DNA of 64,000 nt from Methanoregula sp. PtaU1.Bin051 (GTDB lineage: Archaea > Halobacteriota > Methanomicrobia > Methanomicrobiales > Methanospirillaceae): positions 62,001 to 126,000 of the forward strand of contig MVRE01000012.1 of the NCBI GenBank assembly GCA_002067895.1, in the 5' to 3' direction. Every line of letters begins with the position of its first letter. Position 1 is the stretch's first letter. Under the pieces are notes generated by a model. That model did not search any database. It was given only the letters and a program-made list of their open reading frames with translations, and had not been told where the DNA came from. Below, piece after piece: positions 36,874-59,215 of the stretch. A program made the translations under genes and the position numbers.

Positions 36874-37119
36874 CTATGCCCCGCAGTCGTCGAGGAATTC
36901 CAGAAGGTTGTTCCGTACGACGACAAATGACGGGCCGCCGCCGAATTCAACCCCGATTGCAGCCGCTTCCAGTACCTCCGCCCGTGTCGCCCCGGCACGG
37001 ATAGCATTGTTCGTGTGGTTGGCAAGGCAAGGTACGCAGCGGCAGGAGACAGAGGCCGCCACTGCGATCAGCTCCTTATGTTTCAGGTCGAGGGCCCCCG
37101 GCCGGTAATATTCTTTCAT
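36874..37119 (-). CDS. Carboxymuconolactone decarboxylase/AhpD-like protein, N-terminus probably truncated
   Basis: 81 residues from ATG 37119 with the AhpD-like core: GALDLKHKELIAVAASVSCRCVPC, active CxxC plus His (CVPCLANH), GATRAEVLEAAAIGVEFGGG. Members are small thiol peroxidase-like or disulfide proteins. The frame is open upstream and reads APPLFSGFDSLMKEYYRPG, the expected family N-terminus, but has no start codon until past a run of eight A on the coding strand (37243-37250), beyond which MAKK in another frame would fit with one A fewer. So the full gene may start at 37255 with a homopolymer indel. Function not established. Confidence 0.7.
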   Translation of the reverse strand: MKEYYRPGALDLKHKELIAVAASVSCRCVPCLANHTNNAIRAGATRAEVLEAAAIGVEFGGGPSFVVVRNNLLEFLDDCGA

Positions 37120-50770: not shown

Positions 50771-51589
50771 ATGACGGTTGCTGTCGTCTTCGACTCTGCC
50801 GGCACCCTCCTTTCCACCTATCGTACGGCCAAGGACGTTCGGAAAGGCGAACTCATGCCCGGTGTTGAGACAACGACACTGACCTTTGCCTCACCCGAGC
50901 GGGTTCTCATTGTGCTCCCTGTGCATACGAAGGATATTATCGCTACCCCCCAGGCCATGCTGCTTTCCACTTACCTTGTGGAAAATGACATCGGTTTTGG
51001 CATAAGCTGCACCCGCAAGGTGATCACCGCTGAGGAGATAGGGGATGTCCTCTATAACGATCGGCATGCACTTGTCGGTGACTTGGCCGATTGCATCCGT
51101 GAGGTCTGGAGGGTCTGCCACCGCGAGTCTATCGTGACCCTGAACTCCGGTGCGATCGTGAACATGGCGCAGCAGGGTATCGAATTCACGATCACCGCAG
51201 GAGGCTCCCCATTTCCGGGGGCAAAAGAAGCGATTACCGCGCTGCACCGGATGGGAGTTCCTACGTTCATCGCATCGGGAGACCGGTCGGCCAAGCTGGA
51301 GCGGATGGCTGACCATCTCGGCATCCCCCGTGATCGCGTATACGGTATTGCTACCCCTTCGGTCAAGGCGCAGATCGTAACCGACCTGAGGAAGGAGTAC
51401 GATTCGGTAGTCATGGTAGGGGACGGCATCAACGACCTGAATGCCATGCAGGCCGCGGACATTGCTATCCTCACCGAGCAGCAGCCCGGCGACCGTCCCC
51501 CCGAGCTCTACGCTGCGGCACACCACGTGGTCCGGCATGTCTCCGATGTCGTTACCATTGTAAGAAGCCTGCTGAAACAGCAAAACTGA
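50771..51589 (+). CDS. Soluble P-type-ATPase-like HAD phosphatase
   Basis: A 272-residue HAD hydrolase. Motif I is VVFDSAGTLLS (nucleophile Asp, second Asp replaced by Ala), motif II/III includes FIASGDRSAKL, and motif IV is VMVGDGINDLNAM. This set, without membrane helices, matches soluble phosphatases related to the P domain of P-type ATPases, as in MJ0968. Substrate unknown. The C-terminus ends in a 14-bp tandem duplication (51572-51599) that spans the stop codon. The gene is divergent from the ribose-1,5-bisphosphate isomerase gene. Confidence 0.85.
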   Translation: MTVAVVFDSAGTLLSTYRTAKDVRKGELMPGVETTTLTFASPERVLIVLPVHTKDIIATPQAMLLSTYLVENDIGFGISCTRKVITAEEIGDVLYNDRHALVGDLADCIREVWRVCHRESIVTLNSGAIVNMAQQGIEFTITAGGSPFPGAKEAITALHRMGVPTFIASGDRSAKLERMADHLGIPRDRVYGIATPSVKAQIVTDLRKEYDSVVMVGDGINDLNAMQAADIAILTEQQPGDRPPELYAAAHHVVRHVSDVVTIVRSLLKQQN

Positions 51590-51704: not shown

Positions 51705-53318
51705 ATGAAGCCTCCACTGGTCACGGTCGACAACCTCTGCATGGATTTTGATGGTGCGAAGGTCTTGAAAAATATCAGCTTTACTGTCGCTGAAGGGGAA
51801 GTGCTGGGGATCATCGGCAGGAGCGGTGCCGGCAAAACCGTTCTGATGCACCTGATGCGGGGCGTGGAGCAGCCCCCGACCAGCGGGAAGATCATCTACC
51901 ACGTCGCAGTCTGCAGCGGCTGTGAACACCTTGATGTCGGTAGCGCCGCGGGAAAATCCTGCCCCCATTGCGGCGCGAAGCTGACTGCGCGCGATATCGA
52001 TCTTTGGGGCGAACAGGATGACAATCTCCGGCGGAGGCTGATGCGGCGCACCGCGATCATGTTCCAGCGCACCTTCGCCCTGTACGGAAACGACCGTGTG
52101 ATTGAGAACATTCTCCATGCTCTCGATGATGTGGAGTACCCGGAGGAAAAGAAAATTTCGCGGGCAGCTGACCTTGTCGACCAGGTCAAGCTGTCGCACC
52201 GGATGATGCATATCGCCCGTGACCTTTCCGGAGGCGAGAAACAGCGCGTCGTGCTGGCCCGGCAGCTCGCAAAGGAGCCGTTCATGCTCTTTGCCGACGA
52301 GCCGACCGGCACCCTCGATCCGAATACCGCCCGCCTCGTCCATGACATGCTCAAGGCCTCAGCACAGACAAACAATATGGGCATGATCGTCACCTCCCAC
52401 TTCTCGCAAGTGATCGAAGACGTTGCAGCCCGTGCGATCCTTCTCATTGACGGGTCGATCGCAAAGATCGGTGCACCGAAGGAAGTTATCAGCCAGTTCC
52501 TGAAGGGACATGAGGACAAGGAAAAATTCGCCCATGCCGAGCTGGGGGACAAGGTTGTCGTCGCCCGCGACCTCATCAAGCGCTATATCTCGGTAGACCG
52601 CGGCGTTGTCAAGGCAGTCAACGGCGTCTCGTTCGAGGTCTACAACAAGGAGATCTTCGGGATCATTGGCAAGAGCGGCGCCGGCAAGACCACGCTCTCT
52701 TCTATCATATCGGGGATCATTGAGCCGACAACCGGTGAGATCAATATCCGGATCGGGGAGGACTGGGTGGACATGACCAAGCCCGGGATCGAGGAACGAG
52801 GCCGGGCAAAAGTGTATATCGGGCTCCTGCACCAGGAATACGACCTCTTCCCGCACCGGACGGTGCTTGACAATCTCACCGACGCTATCGGGCTCGAGTT
52901 CCCCAAGGAGCTTGCGATGAGGAAGGCTATCGTAACCCTCCGCATGGCAGGGTTCAGCGAAGAGAAGAGTACGGAGATCCTCGACCGGATGCCCGGGCAG
53001 CTCTCTGAAGGGGAGCGCCACCGGGTCGCCCTCGCGCAGGTACTGATCCATGAGCCCCGGATCGTGATCCTTGACGAACCCACGGGCACGATGGACCCGA
53101 TTACCAAGATGGACGTAAAGCACTCCATCATGCATGCACGCGAGGAGATGGAGGAGACGTTCATCGTCGTCTCGCATGACATGGATTTCGTGCAGGACAT
53201 CTGCGACCGGCTCGCACTGATGCGGGGCGGAAAGATGGTGATGATCGGAAAGACTGACGAAGTGCTCGCAAGCCTCACTAAGGATGAACGCGAGGTCATG
53301 AGCAAACCTAACGGCTGA
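51705..53318 (+). CDS. atwA: Methyl-coenzyme M reductase activation component A2 (dual ABC ATPase)
   Basis: A 537-residue protein with two ABC ATPase domains in tandem. Domain 1: Walker A GRSGAGKT (38-45), a four-cysteine insert (C70, C73, C86, C89; CSGC and CPHC), signature LSGGEKQR and Walker B MLFADEPTG. Domain 2: GKSGAGKTTL, signature LSEGERHR and Walker B IVILDEPTG. No transmembrane partner exists. Component A2 supplies ATP for reducing the nickel F430 of MCR to the active Ni(I) state. It is the first gene of the marker-protein operon, 12 bp before marker 3. Confidence 0.95.
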   Translation: MKPPLVTVDNLCMDFDGAKVLKNISFTVAEGEVLGIIGRSGAGKTVLMHLMRGVEQPPTSGKIIYHVAVCSGCEHLDVGSAAGKSCPHCGAKLTARDIDLWGEQDDNLRRRLMRRTAIMFQRTFALYGNDRVIENILHALDDVEYPEEKKISRAADLVDQVKLSHRMMHIARDLSGGEKQRVVLARQLAKEPFMLFADEPTGTLDPNTARLVHDMLKASAQTNNMGMIVTSHFSQVIEDVAARAILLIDGSIAKIGAPKEVISQFLKGHEDKEKFAHAELGDKVVVARDLIKRYISVDRGVVKAVNGVSFEVYNKEIFGIIGKSGAGKTTLSSIISGIIEPTTGEINIRIGEDWVDMTKPGIEERGRAKVYIGLLHQEYDLFPHRTVLDNLTDAIGLEFPKELAMRKAIVTLRMAGFSEEKSTEILDRMPGQLSEGERHRVALAQVLIHEPRIVILDEPTGTMDPITKMDVKHSIMHAREEMEETFIVVSHDMDFVQDICDRLALMRGGKMVMIGKTDEVLASLTKDEREVMSKPNG

Positions 53319-53330
53319 GGTGCCCTTTTC

Positions 53331-54857
53331 GTGGCTGTCATCCACCTCGACGGGGAGAAGATCGAGGTTGCTCCGGGGAGTGCCCTGCATACCGTTATCC
53401 CCGCGCTCCCGGACGGCTGCTGCGTTGCTGTGATCCGGCCGCCCGTACAGGAGCGGGCAGCAACGAACAGTTTTTCAATCCATACGACGGCCGGGGAAGT
53501 CAGGATCGAAGCGGAAGGCGACAAAGCCGCGTTCCTTGCAGCGCGAGGCGCCGCAGACGCTCTTGTGCTGCACTGGCAGGACCGTTACGCTGCTGCGTTC
53601 GGCCCGTTCACCTCGCCACTACAGCCGGTGCGGAAACCGAATCTCTATGAGCGGGGCGACATGATCCTTGGCTGCGGCGGGTATGACCCGAAGCATTCGT
53701 ACCTGATCTTCTCCAAGAGCCGCCATTCCGCTGACCACGGGGCTGATGCAGGCGGAGGGGTAATCGGCAGGGTCGTTGCAGGCCGGGCTGTTCTCGACCG
53801 CTGGACAACGGGGGACCGGATCGAGCGGATCGAGCAGGTAATCAGCTGGGCCGATACGAGCCGGTCGTTCACCACGACCGACCTTACAATCACTCTTGAG
53901 GACGGGATGCAGGTTATAACTTACGTCTCCATTATAGCACAGGGTTACAGCCCCGGCCGGATCACAACGGAGGCGGCAGGAAGCGTCGAGCACATGCTTG
54001 CATCGCTCGCGGCTCACCGGTTCACGGTCAGCCGTGCCACGAGCACCCATATCCTGGATTCCGGTCCGGCTGGCACTGAGGTCGAGGCCGGGCACCGGCA
54101 CCCCCGGCGGGAGGGCGCGGTAACGGTGCGTACTGCCGGTTCGTCTGCCGGCGGGATCTATATCTACCGCGAGGATGTCCAGAGCAGTCCTGCCCACAGT
54201 ATTGTCGGGCAGGTTATCCAGGGGATCGAGCTTGTCAGGATTGCAAAGGAAGGCGATATCCTCTCCATTAGGATACAACCGGAGCGCATCGACCTCCTGG
54301 GTCTCCCGCTTTCGCGGGCGCAAAAGATCGCACAGGAGCGGGGATTTGTGCTCAATGCTGACAGCGATGACGGCAGCAGGATGATCGTTTCGCAGGAGCC
54401 GGCAACAACGCTGGACGTGCTGAAGGAAAAATCAGCGACCGTTACGACAGCCCCGGCCGCAAGGGTCGTCGACCTCGAGCTGGACGATAAAAAGGCCCCG
54501 GTGAGCTGTGCAATCTTCCGGCGAGTAACGGGGCTGATGAACCATGATGCGGGTGTCATCCCGCTCTTCTTCAAGTTCGACGATGTCTACCTCTTCAAAC
54601 CGCCGGTTCCCCCCGGCCTGAAGATAAATCCCGAAAATACCCCCGAAGGGGAGGTCGCTGCTGCGGCGCTTGCGATCACAAACGATTCCCGGAAGGGATC
54701 GGGGATGGTGGGGGTTCGCCTCTCGGCGAACCGGGAATTCGGCCCGACATCCGAGCCGTTCGAAGGTACTAATATCATCGGGCGCGTGATCGATACGGAA
54801 AAACTGAAAGGGTTTAAGGAGAGGGAGAAGGTGTACATCAGGGAGGTACGGCGATGA
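53331..54857 (+). CDS. Methanogenesis marker protein 3 (UPF0288)
   Basis: A 508-residue protein of the UPF0288/marker 3 family, found in methanogens. It starts at GTG 53331 with VAVIHLDGEKIEVAPGSAL and contains the characteristic LILEVHWQ-like region as DALVLHWQDRYAAAFGPF and the GDMILGCGGYDPKHSYLIF segment; a cyclophilin-like fold is proposed for the middle part (GGVIGRVVAGRAVLDRW, quoted in part). Published biochemistry places marker 3 in the MCR activation complex. The stop overlaps the start of marker 6 by 4 bp (ATGA), so translation is coupled. Confidence 0.92.
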   Translation: MAVIHLDGEKIEVAPGSALHTVIPALPDGCCVAVIRPPVQERAATNSFSIHTTAGEVRIEAEGDKAAFLAARGAADALVLHWQDRYAAAFGPFTSPLQPVRKPNLYERGDMILGCGGYDPKHSYLIFSKSRHSADHGADAGGGVIGRVVAGRAVLDRWTTGDRIERIEQVISWADTSRSFTTTDLTITLEDGMQVITYVSIIAQGYSPGRITTEAAGSVEHMLASLAAHRFTVSRATSTHILDSGPAGTEVEAGHRHPRREGAVTVRTAGSSAGGIYIYREDVQSSPAHSIVGQVIQGIELVRIAKEGDILSIRIQPERIDLLGLPLSRAQKIAQERGFVLNADSDDGSRMIVSQEPATTLDVLKEKSATVTTAPAARVVDLELDDKKAPVSCAIFRRVTGLMNHDAGVIPLFFKFDDVYLFKPPVPPGLKINPENTPEGEVAAAALAITNDSRKGSGMVGVRLSANREFGPTSEPFEGTNIIGRVIDTEKLKGFKEREKVYIREVRR

Positions 54858-55312
54858 CCGACTATGTCCCGATGAGACCGGGGACGGTAACCCGTTACGT
54901 GGTGGTCGAGTCCTTAACGATAACCCCGTCCGAGCTTGCGATCCGGGCGTACGAGATCTCGCAGGGGGTCATGATCAAGGAAACCTGCTTCGGCCTTGCC
55001 ATCAACGGCGAAGAGCAGGCCGTTGACAGCCTGATCGCAAAGCTCCGCACCATGGAACCCGACCATATCTTCGTCAAGGACCGGGGCTTCCTGCCCGGTG
55101 ACCCCCGCCGCTGCCGTGCCAACCACGGAGGGGCCCGTCCCGGCTTCCACGGAATCGAATTCGAGACCGCCGTGCTGCCCTACATATCGCACGGCCTCAC
55201 TGAGATCCGGAGCCGCCCCTACTCAGATATCCCGCTGCCGGAGAGTCCGCCTGAAACAAAGAAACTGGACGTGTACAAACTGAAAAAGATAATCGAAGCA
55301 CAGGAGCCCTGA
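54854..55312 (+). CDS. Methanogenesis marker protein 6
   Basis: A 152-residue marker 6 protein. Recognisable parts are VESLTITPSELAIRAYE, KETCFGLAINGE and the basic, proline-rich loop FLPGDPRRCRANHGGAR. No enzyme motif is evident; only methanogens and relatives have it. It starts within the ATGA overlap with marker 3 and ends 2 bp before marker 5. Role inferred from context: MCR maturation or activation. Confidence 0.92.
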   Translation: MTDYVPMRPGTVTRYVVVESLTITPSELAIRAYEISQGVMIKETCFGLAINGEEQAVDSLIAKLRTMEPDHIFVKDRGFLPGDPRRCRANHGGARPGFHGIEFETAVLPYISHGLTEIRSRPYSDIPLPESPPETKKLDVYKLKKIIEAQEP

Positions 55313-55314
55313 CC

Positions 55315-55761
55315 ATGGCAAAGGTATTCATCTACCCCGCAACCAGCCTGATCCTCTCGGATCTCGTCGCCCGGTACGGACACACCCCGCTCTCATCCGC
55401 GATCGCGATCCGGGAGCGCGTCCAGACCGCAGGCATTGAATCGGCACCCCTCCAGATAACCCCTGAAGAACCGAAAAAAGGGCTGAAGTGGGCGGCAGTC
55501 GAGGTTCCGAGCGGGGTCCGGGGCAGGATGTCGCTCTACGGCCCGATGATTGAAGAGTGCGAAGCAGCGATCGTCATCAACGATGCCGATCTCGCTTTCG
55601 GGTGTATGGGGTGCGCCCGCACGAACGAGCTGATCAAATTTCTGGTGCGGGAAAAAGGCGTCCCCCGGCTTGACCTGGACTACCCGAAATCCGAGGAGGA
55701 GGGCGTGCAGTTCGTTGCGGCAATCAAACGTTTCCTTGATGGGCTCGGGGGCGGCAGATGA
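55315..55761 (+). CDS. Methanogenesis marker protein 5
   Basis: A 148-residue marker 5 protein starting [23 protein letters not shown]. The middle has the two-cysteine motif [12 protein letters not shown], which may be structural or cluster-binding. Its stop overlaps the start of marker 15 by 4 bp. Known only from methanogens and related archaea; function inferred from the operon. Confidence 0.92.
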
Positions 55762-56996
55762 CTCCGCCGGTCCGTATCGCCCAGCTCTCCTGCGGGCCGG
55801 AATACAGCGGTGTTCAGCAGGAGATCAACGAAGCGGCAAAGTCCGTGAACGGGGAGATCTTCTTCCCCGACATCGCGTTGAAAGACATTATTAAGGACTT
55901 CAACGAGTTCGGGCTGGACGTCCGGAGCCCCGACCTCAAGCTCGCGATAGCGCGGGCGAAGGCGCTCGTAGAGGGGCGGATCGATGCCGATGCCGTCTTC
56001 ATCGCCACATGCTTCCGGTGCGCCGAAGCTGCGATCGTGAGAAACGAACTCCGGCGCTACATTCACACGCACTCGAAACTCCCCGTGGTCAGCTACTCGT
56101 TTACCGAACGGACGACCGCAGGAACGCTCCTCACACGGATGGAGGCGCTGACAACGATTGCACGGAGACGGGCGCTTCTCGCACGTGAGGTACAGGAGGG
56201 AATCACTCTGGGTGTCGACTCGGGCTCTTCCACGACAAAAGCTATCGTCATGAAGGACAACCAGATCATCGGCACCGGCTGGCAGCCGACGACTGAAGTG
56301 CTCCAGAGCGCCCGTGACGTGATCGCCCATGCCCTTACCGAAGCCCGGATTAAACGTGAGGAGATCGATGCCGTGGGGACGACCGGCTATGGCCGGTTCC
56401 TCGTGGGGAGGGATATCAACGCCGACCTGATCCAGGAGGAACTGACCGTCAACTCGAAAGGGGCAGTCTACCTCGCGGACCGGCAGCACGGGCCGGCGAC
56501 CGTGATCGATATCGGCGGCATGGACAACAAGGCGATCTCGGTGCAGGATGGGATCCCCGGTACCTTCACGATGGGGGGCATCTGCGCCGGGGCGAGCGGG
56601 CGGTTTCTCGAGATGACATCGAAGCGGCTTGGCGTTGATATTACGGAACTCGGGCCCCTTGCCATGAAGGGATTTTCACGGAACGTGCCGATGAACAGCT
56701 ACTGCATCGTCTTCGGCACCCAGAGCCTCGTCAATGCACTTGCCGCCGGCAGCTCCCGCGAGGACGTCGCTGCCGCAGCCTGCCACTCGGTTGCCGAGCA
56801 GGTCTTCGAGCAGCAGCTGCAGGAGGTTGATATCAAGGAGCCGGTCATCATGGTCGGCGGGACATCGCTGATCGAGGGGCTCGTACACGCGATGGGCGAA
56901 CTCCTCCAGACGAAGATTATGGTGCCGAAACACTCCCAGTACATCGGCGCAGTAGGCTCTGCGCTGCTGGCGAGCGGGTTTATCAGGGAACGCTGA
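55758..56996 (+). CDS. Methanogenesis marker protein 15 (BcrA/HgdC-type ATPase)
   Basis: A 412-residue protein. The N-terminal about 150 residues are specific to marker 15 ([17 protein letters not shown]). The rest is an ASKHA ATPase like the activators of benzoyl-CoA reductase and 2-hydroxyacyl-CoA dehydratase: phosphate loop [14 protein letters not shown], second motif [24 protein letters not shown] with the cluster cysteine, and adenosine motif [11 protein letters not shown]. Relatives drive low-potential electron transfer with ATP and a 4Fe-4S cluster, which fits a role in MCR reductive activation. Sits between markers 5 and 17. Confidence 0.93.
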
Positions 56997-56997
56997 G

Positions 56998-57582
56998 ATG
57001 CAGGCCATTGAGTATTTCGAGGTGGAGTGTCCCGAGACGCTGGGTGGCGAGTACTACAAGCAGATAACAAACGACGTGCTGCTCGACCATAACCTGCTCC
57101 GCGTAATCCGGAAGATCCATGTCTATGTCGATCCGAACGTCCCGATCTTCATCGCTGTCGGTATGCTGCACAGGATCACAACGCTTGTTAAGGTCGGGGA
57201 CTTCTGCAATGTCAACCCGCTGGAGGGCAAAATCACGCTCGTACTCTCGAACGAGACGTACCTTGCGCCGATGCTGAAAATATTCTGGCAGAAGTTCGGG
57301 CAGGACCGCGTCGAGCAGGCTGACCGGTTCACCGTCATCCTCCGGGGGATTTCTGCGGGCGTAAAGGAGATCGAGGAGATCGTGGTCGCCGACCCCAGCG
57401 AGTCAGTATACAAGGACCTGATTTACGCTTTGAAATGCATCGCCCCCGAAGGTTTTCGGATCCGGCGCGAGAAATACGGGGGTGGCAGGTTCTACTTCGT
57501 CTCGAGCGAGGACACGCTTCCCGACGAAGTGGATGGTCATATAACAAAATTGTTCTCGAAGATGGGGGAGGCGTTCCCATGA
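56998..57582 (+). CDS. Methanogenesis marker protein 17
   Basis: A 194-residue marker 17 protein starting MQAIEYFEVECPETLGGEYYKQI. No cofactor motif is obvious. Published work on MCR activation reports marker 17 in the complex with marker 7, component A2 and McrC. It begins 1 bp after marker 15 and its stop overlaps the marker 7 start (ATGA at 57579). Confidence 0.92.
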   Translation: MQAIEYFEVECPETLGGEYYKQITNDVLLDHNLLRVIRKIHVYVDPNVPIFIAVGMLHRITTLVKVGDFCNVNPLEGKITLVLSNETYLAPMLKIFWQKFGQDRVEQADRFTVILRGISAGVKEIEEIVVADPSESVYKDLIYALKCIAPEGFRIRREKYGGGRFYFVSSEDTLPDEVDGHITKLFSKMGEAFP

Positions 57583-58517
57583 TCCTCGTTCCTGTCACCT
57601 ATAGGGGGGGCATTTACCGGCACGGGGAAGTGATGGATCTTATCGAGGACATCGGGGGCTATATCGTCCAGAAGCACATAATCGCACAGGAGGTCGTCCT
57701 CCAGTGTTTTGTGCCGCAGGCCGATGTGGAGTTCCTGCGGAACACCGTCAAGCCGATCTCCGGAGAAGTGACCGACTCGCCGCTTGTCGGCACCGAGATC
57801 GCGATCGTCTCCATGTCGCTCGAGATCCACCATCTCCCGCACCCGTCCTGCGACATTGCCGAGTACGTGCGCCGGCTCGGGGCAAAGAGCAACATGGTCA
57901 GCCTCGCCCGGGGGCCGGGCAAGCGGATCTCCCAGCTCAACGACGAAGAGCGTGATGTGATCAACGAGCACGATATCGCTGTCTACCTGCTGGGCAACTT
58001 CGAGAAGTGCATCCAGCAGAAGCTGCCGAACCTGCGGCGCGGGATCGAGGTGCCGATCGTGCTCTGCGGGGGGCCGGACAAGGAGAACCTCCAGCGGATT
58101 ACTGATCCGCCGGTCGACGGCTACGTGGGCAATGTCGGGCGGTTCATGCACCGGACGAAAGAGTCGGAGGAGCTGACCAAGCTGGACGAGATCATCTCAG
58201 AAGTGACCCGTGTGCTCGATGCCCGCAGGGTTGCAATTGCAAAGGACCCCCTCTCGGTCTCGCCAGCCCGGCTCATGGACTTAATCCGGGAAAAGGTGCC
58301 GGCTATCCTCGACGTTACCTCCCCGACGCCGCTCACCGTACAGATGCAGGGGCTCCGGGTCAAGCTGCCATACGATCCCTATGCAACGGAGATCCGGAAG
58401 ATTGAGATCGAGGACGGGGTGACAATTGAAGACATCGCGCGGGTGAACCCCTCGCGAATGCGGGATTATATCCTTCTCCAGATCCTGCCGTTCTCTGAAA
58501 CGAACGTGGTGGTATGA
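57579..58517 (+). CDS. Methanogenesis marker protein 7
   Basis: A 312-residue marker 7 protein starting MILVPVTYRGGIYRHGEVMD at ATG 57579; the frame is open back to 57435 but inside marker 17, so that extension is rejected. Features include LEIHHLPHPSCDIAEYVRRL and PIVLCGGPDKENL, each with a conserved Cys and Gly-Pro/His context that could hold a metal cluster. Published work places marker 7 in the MCR activation complex; recent structural reports describe complex iron-sulfur clusters there. Directly followed (0 bp) by the AhpD-like gene. Confidence 0.93.
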   Translation: MILVPVTYRGGIYRHGEVMDLIEDIGGYIVQKHIIAQEVVLQCFVPQADVEFLRNTVKPISGEVTDSPLVGTEIAIVSMSLEIHHLPHPSCDIAEYVRRLGAKSNMVSLARGPGKRISQLNDEERDVINEHDIAVYLLGNFEKCIQQKLPNLRRGIEVPIVLCGGPDKENLQRITDPPVDGYVGNVGRFMHRTKESEELTKLDEIISEVTRVLDARRVAIAKDPLSVSPARLMDLIREKVPAILDVTSPTPLTVQMQGLRVKLPYDPYATEIRKIEIEDGVTIEDIARVNPSRMRDYILLQILPFSETNVVV

Positions 58518-59000
58518 ATGGGAAGAGCGTCAAAATTGCAATTTGAGGAGAAACTTGCACAGATCGTCGCGCGGGGCGCCGATGTCACTGCAGACGAGTG
58601 GATGAAGGCAATCGAGGTCGATTACGGGCGGGTGCCCCTCATCTTCCAGCGGATGAGCGAGCGCCCCGAGGTGCTCATCTCCCACCTGCTGTACAAGGGG
58701 ACTGTTGCCGAGACCAGCCCGCTCGACCCCAAGTACGTGGAGCTGATCAGCATGGCCGTAGGGGCCGCCCTCAAGTGCCCGCACTGTACGGGCTACCATA
58801 TGCAGGCCGCGGTCAAGATGGGCGCGACACGCGAGGAGATCCTCGAAGTGATCCTGCTCGCCGGCATGATCTCGAACTCTTCCGTGCTTGCCAATGCCTA
58901 CCGTATCGTGGACGAGAAGCTGGAGCGGTGCATCCCCTGCGAGACAAAAGGTGTGCGCCGGAAGGCCCCAAAGAAGACTGCAAGAAAGAAAAGGAGGTAA
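58518..59000 (+). CDS. AhpD/carboxymuconolactone decarboxylase-like protein with basic tail, last gene of the MCR-activation operon
   Basis: A 160-residue protein whose ATG follows the marker 7 stop with no gap. The AhpD-like core is LISMAVGAALKCPHCTGYHMQAAVKMG (cited core CPHCTGYH), giving the CxxC plus His of a thiol redox centre, then GATREEILEVILLAGM. The last about 16 residues are almost all Lys, Arg, Ala and Pro (RRKAPKKTARKKRR), not usual for the family. Context suggests a thiol/redox or chaperone role in MCR activation; that link is inference. The gene may also be a coincidental passenger. Confidence 0.85.
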   Translation: MGRASKLQFEEKLAQIVARGADVTADEWMKAIEVDYGRVPLIFQRMSERPEVLISHLLYKGTVAETSPLDPKYVELISMAVGAALKCPHCTGYHMQAAVKMGATREEILEVILLAGMISNSSVLANAYRIVDEKLERCIPCETKGVRRKAPKKTARKKRR

Positions 59001-59014
59001 GATCTCAATCTCTT

Positions 59015-59215
59015 TTAACTCTCTTCATCAAGCCTGAACATCTCTTCGACCGGCACGTTGAACAGTTTTGCAATCCGGAACGCGACCTCGATAGAGGGGT
59101 TGTATTTCCCCCGCTCGATGGCATTGATCGTTCGGCGCGTGACCCCGAGGAGCTCGGCAAGCTCTTCCTGCGTCATGTCATGCATTGCCCGGTGAACCTT
59201 GATCCTGTTTTTCAT
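59015..59215 (-). CDS. XRE-family helix-turn-helix regulator
   Basis: A 66-residue Cro/CI-type DNA-binding protein. Helices 2 and 3 are MTQEELAELLGVTRRTINAIERG, seen as QEELAELLGV and RTINAIERGKYNPS. It starts at ATG 59215, 6 bp after the stop of the DUF2178 membrane gene (59222), the usual pairing in archaea where the membrane protein may control the regulator. Converges on the MCR operon end (59000). Confidence 0.9.
   Translation of the reverse strand: MKNRIKVHRAMHDMTQEELAELLGVTRRTINAIERGKYNPSIEVAFRIAKLFNVPVEEMFRLDEES

Follow-up and report, generated by a model that had tools for sequence, protein, structure and literature searches.

The window analysed here, a stretch of 64,000 nucleotides from Methanoregula sp. 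PtaU1.Bin051, carries at 58518–59000 on the forward strand (+) an open reading frame (ORF) for a 160-amino-acid protein that profile matches assign to the AhpD/carboxymuconolactone decarboxylase (CMD) family. Upstream of it on the same strand lie atwA, encoding MCR component A2 (51705–53318, TIGR03269), mmp3 (53331–54857, TIGR03268), mmp6 (54854–55312, TIGR03272), mmp5 (55315–55761, TIGR03271), mmp15 (55758–56996, TIGR03286), mmp17 (56998–57582, TIGR03291) and mmp7, the gene for methanogenesis marker 7 (57594–58517 with an approximate start, TIGR03274, 424 bits), each of which matches its NCBIfam model above the cut-off. The ATG of the CMD gene (58518–58520) abuts the TGA of mmp7 (58515–58517) with zero bases between them, and the frame remains open until a stop at 58998–59000. 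Since the next gene, a helix-turn-helix gene at 59015–59215, is convergent, the CMD gene is the last of the operon. These readings agree with the preliminary description of this stretch, in which the gene was said to start directly at the marker 7 stop and to close the MCR-activation operon, here A2-mmp3-mmp6-mmp5-mmp15-mmp17-mmp7. A scan for terminators and promoters around the CMD gene, for which the consensus was bacterial only, found nothing above chance. Comparison with four congeners gave dN/dS values of 0.05–0.14, indicating purifying selection, and this, together with the presence of an ortholog in every near-complete Methanomicrobiales genome searched, rules out a chance ORF. At the other end of the operon, just 5′ of atwA, we also observed an ORF for a HAD/P-type-ATPase-like phosphatase (50771–51589, +), which is kept there in most of the Methanomicrobiales loci that reach that far.

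Judged by its sequence, the 160-amino-acid protein is a member of the carboxymuconolactone-decarboxylase/AhpD superfamily PF02627, scoring 63 bits against this family (cut-off 23) and 40.6 bits against the AhpD domain model TIGR00778 (cut-off 27.8). The CPHC motif and following histidine, previously noted as the redox core of AhpD, are found at residues 87–94 (C87-P-H-C90-TGY-H94, 58776–58799), with a glutamate, E75 (58740–58742), 12 residues before the first cysteine. A second cysteine pair, C138-I-P-C141 (58929–58940), had escaped the preliminary description; no cysteines beyond these four occur in the window protein, and the two pairs are distant in sequence. Across 35 diverse orthologs drawn from all mmp7-linked groups, only 13 alignment columns are invariant, and E75, C87, C90, H94, C138 and C141 are all among them. 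In other families, where orthologs are down to 30–39% identical to the window protein, the C-terminal pair is still invariant; it is spaced as CxxC in most orthologs and as CxxxC in some Methanomicrobiaceae, and two Methanosarcinaceae-like orthologs have a richer cluster, CCDPDCEVC or CCDPNCEVC. In contrast, a C-terminal CxxC is missing from all 22 CMD proteins compared (20 encoded elsewhere in the phylum, two in the window's own genome), and many of them are without one core cysteine, namely the first. A second, small CMD-type ORF is present in the window but outside the operon (36874–37119, −, 81 amino acids, with a CVPC...H core), and the genome's third CMD lies on another contig. The Lys/Arg/Ala/Pro tail emphasized in the preliminary description (58953–58997) is real, the residues beyond the last CxxC carrying a net charge of +10, yet it is limited to the genus Methanoregula, where orthologs have tail charges of +3 to +17 as against −6 to +2 in others, and for this reason we rejected it as a key feature.

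The predicted structural model is all-helical and conforms to the CMD fold, with a core modelled at a pLDDT of 86–98 and a C-terminal arm at a low-confidence pLDDT of 62–76. Its top fold matches in the PDB are CMD proteins (3bey, 7y4r, 5dik and 2cwq, with E-values of 0.0035 and up). The profile also aligns over 53 residues with M. tuberculosis AhpD (1gu9/1knc), profile positions 64–116 corresponding to chain positions 112–164. If these equal-length spans are laid together on the assumption of an ungapped match to 1gu9, E75, C87, C90 and H94 fall on Glu118, Cys130, Cys133 and His137, which we take to be the catalytic set of AhpD.

To follow the gene across genomes, we used a search profile built from 20 orthologs. 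It detected a CMD ortholog in each of 119 near-complete Methanomicrobiales genomes, which cover 28 genera and six families; mmp7 was likewise present in every one, above its cut-off in 118 of them. In one genome (G100:C375:9719-10235), which is without a full mmp7 match, the CMD match runs across two overlapping frames, likely because of an assembly error or frameshift. Coordinates could be compared in 118 genomes: in 97 of these, no more than 400 bases separate mmp7 from a CMD gene 3′ of it on the same strand, in a further 15 up to 4 kb and in a further three up to 7 kb, for a total of 115, whereas the remaining three have the CMD gene at another place or on a different contig. When the search was widened to 247 genomes of the phylum, the CMD gene directly followed mmp7 in every one of the 45 matching genomes of two further families, probably Methanosarcinaceae (f8) and Methanotrichaceae (f21), and lay 1.5–2.7 kb after it in three of three from a third (f14), probably Methanocellaceae; these family names are judged from gene content, genome size and the composition of the phylum. 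We take these families to represent three more orders, and hence the linkage to hold in at least four methanogen groups. Conservation after marker 7 across methanogens, which the preliminary description had proposed as a check, was therefore observed, and the first half of its own objection, that the gene might adjoin marker 7 in this lineage only, falls away. A few genomes have the ortholog away from mmp7 or on another contig (G118, G115, G103, G277 and G317), and in family f29, too, the ortholog is not beside mmp7.

The limits of this linkage were also apparent. Most genomes of the ANME-1-like (f10), Archaeoglobi-like (f9) and other mmp7-bearing families are without an ortholog, and in the 247-genome search neither these families nor f7 had a linked one, different genes following mmp7 instead; the CMD gene is thus not itself a methanogenesis marker present wherever mmp7 is. 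In the sampled loci, the genes 3′ of the CMD gene differ between families, near relatives excepted, which indicates that the linkage is selective and that synteny ends with the CMD gene; the linkage counts and this turnover of the genes beyond together rule out a chance adjacency to mmp7. Methanolinea-like and Methanocellaceae-like loci have opposite-strand genes between mmp7 and the CMD gene, and genus g12 has genes of both strands there, so that co-transcription has probably been lost in these loci while the CMD gene stays nearby. Two other ORFs recur around mmp7. One, beginning M(E/V)(L/V)LADVGG.PG.DC.GFC.YCYF, adjoins mmp7 in family f7 (2066–3283 in L130, 6262–7479 in L131) and, in Methanocellaceae-like loci, is found close to the CMD gene (∼1 kb 3′ of it in L117 and L118); its sequence resembles that of the radical SAM marker Mmp10. 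The other, a conserved Cys-rich ORF (..CPVPVCHGGDPRALTFCCHP..), adjoins mmp7 in two f12 loci, L134 (6092–6580) and L125 (1018–1515), sharing the strand of mmp7 in one of them but not in the other.

In a tree built from linked and unlinked CMD proteins, a distant paralog set separates well, though some single-Cys unlinked CMDs fall among the linked orthologs when the tree is left free; a single clade of all linked proteins, which the free tree does not show, is not rejected either (p-AU 0.08). Three orthologs that have left mmp7 cluster with the linked proteins: L138 joins its own genus firmly, and the other two, L121 and L123, join the Methanosarcinaceae-like set.

Almost all methane of biological origin is made by MCR, and a redox protein fixed at the end of the activation operon over a large branch of methanogens is a concrete candidate for a part in reducing its nickel cofactor and keeping it active in the cell. 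The experimental background comes from M. marburgensis and Methanococcus, both class I methanogens. As relayed in PMC9081873 (citing Prakash 2014), MCR is inactivated by heterodisulfide, and in M. marburgensis DTT suffices as a reductant when A2, a crude A3a fraction and ATP are supplied. The complex purified from M. maripaludis, in contrast, needs Ti(III) citrate and fails with DTT, and because of this failure the authors of the 2025 complex structure suspect missing factors (PMC12176620). Mmp7 and McrC carry [8Fe-9S-C] clusters (PMC12176620). The literature that we searched contained no paper linking a CMD/AhpD protein to MCR activation.

With about even confidence, we propose that this AhpD/CMD-fold protein works as a dithiol-disulfide oxidoreductase dedicated to MCR, or to the machinery that activates it, and that it would keep one or the other reduced in a large branch of methanogens, the Methanomicrobia/Methanosarcinia/Methanocellia. 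Because of the protein's membership in the AhpD family, the C87/C90 core dithiol, activated through an E75-H94 relay as in AhpD, would be expected to reduce an oxidised target. The linkage to mmp7 suggests where such a target might be sought: it could be one of the cysteines in the Mmp7/McrC/Mmp17 relay, which bears clusters, or a disulfide, either a CoM/CoB mixed disulfide or CoM-S-S-CoB, by which MCR is locked in an inactive state, or else a peroxide formed nearby. It is the invariance of C138/C141 by itself that suggests a shuttle, in which this pair, on its flexible arm, could mediate electron transfer between the core and either the target or a donor upstream of it. The protein may also associate physically with the activation machinery, and the role with CoM/CoB thiols or with McrC and the markers that was raised in the preliminary description is a plausible possibility. 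The DTT and heterodisulfide observations (PMC9081873, PMC12176620) fit such an oxidoreductase.

The protein seems not to be universal in MCR activation, since nifB is reported next after the M. marburgensis mmp cluster (PMC12176620). Nor can it be an obligatory part of the process, because the Methanococcus complexes, solved or pulled down, work without a listed AhpD/CMD protein (PMC12176620, PMC9584954) and many mmp7-bearing lineages are without an ortholog; the mmp genes of those Methanococcus species are dispersed. It is therefore more probable that the protein has an accessory, protective or regenerating role in a single branch than that it carries out a step common to all. A narrower form of the proposal, that the protein is the physiological dithiol reductant of class II methanogens, the cell's counterpart of DTT, or a factor that clears heterodisulfide, with its C-terminal CxxC arm feeding Mmp7/Mmp17 or the blocked MCR active site, is doubtful. 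The candidate can be tested genetically, for example in the established genetic model Methanosarcina acetivorans.

The same residues and context could be read in other ways. The AhpD catalytic set, and the presence of RclX and several antioxidant-annotated CMDs among the nearest solved folds, would also suit an AhpD-like peroxidase, an oxidant-defence addition protecting F430-MCR or the oxygen-sensitive activation machinery against peroxides. However, the operon is without AhpC or a thioredoxin-type partner, the invariant C-terminal CxxC is foreign to the AhpD mechanism, and the gene is linked to mmp7 rather than to stress genes, and so we consider a peroxidase unlikely. Linkage bears likewise on the idea of a general thiol housekeeping protein whose position beside mmp7 is historical or reflects mere co-expression with energy metabolism: the gene is kept where opposite-strand genes intervene or where it sits elsewhere, as such a protein might be, yet the linkage holds across divergent families despite the turnover of adjoining genes, which makes this reading quite improbable. 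Least probable of all, in our estimate, is a role in handling metals or clusters for Mmp7/McrC, with a metal or Fe-S fragment bound by the C-terminal cysteines, either by themselves or together with the core pair. The nitrogenase-like character of the [8Fe-9S-C] clusters in these partners (PMC12176620) and the richer cysteine cluster of the two Methanosarcinaceae-like orthologs would favour it, but the window protein has only its four cysteines, in pairs far apart in sequence, and the conservation of E75/H94 points to thiol chemistry. We retain the dedicated oxidoreductase as our working interpretation.

Although the CMD fold and its redox core are already known, a subfamily with two invariant cysteine pairs at the end of an MCR-activation operon was not found in the literature searched. 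M. tuberculosis AhpD shares the aligned core but has 177 amino acids, an AhpC partner, no C-terminal CxxC and no methanogen context. The protein is thus not AhpD proper, which is ∼177 amino acids long and encoded beside ahpC, as it has 160 amino acids and an operon without ahpC; nor is it gamma-carboxymuconolactone decarboxylase (PcaC), its context being MCR activation and not the protocatechuate pathway. O27018 from Methanothermobacter (3bey) and RclX (7y4r) are the best fold matches, with TM-scores by target of 0.7–0.84 and a CxxC core, but their chains of 96–112 amino acids leave no room for the N-terminal helices or the C-terminal cysteine pair. The single-Cys CMD paralogs of the same phylum have the PF02627-type fold, and some stand beside linked orthologs in the free tree, but they are without the C-terminal CxxC and the first core cysteine and do not lie beside mmp7. 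Finally, while an AhpD/CMD protein has not been reported in the McrC-Mmp7-Mmp17-Mmp3-A2-DUF2098 activation complex of Methanococcus (PMC12176620), four subunits of that complex, A2, Mmp3, Mmp17 and Mmp7, are encoded in the operon that the CMD gene closes.
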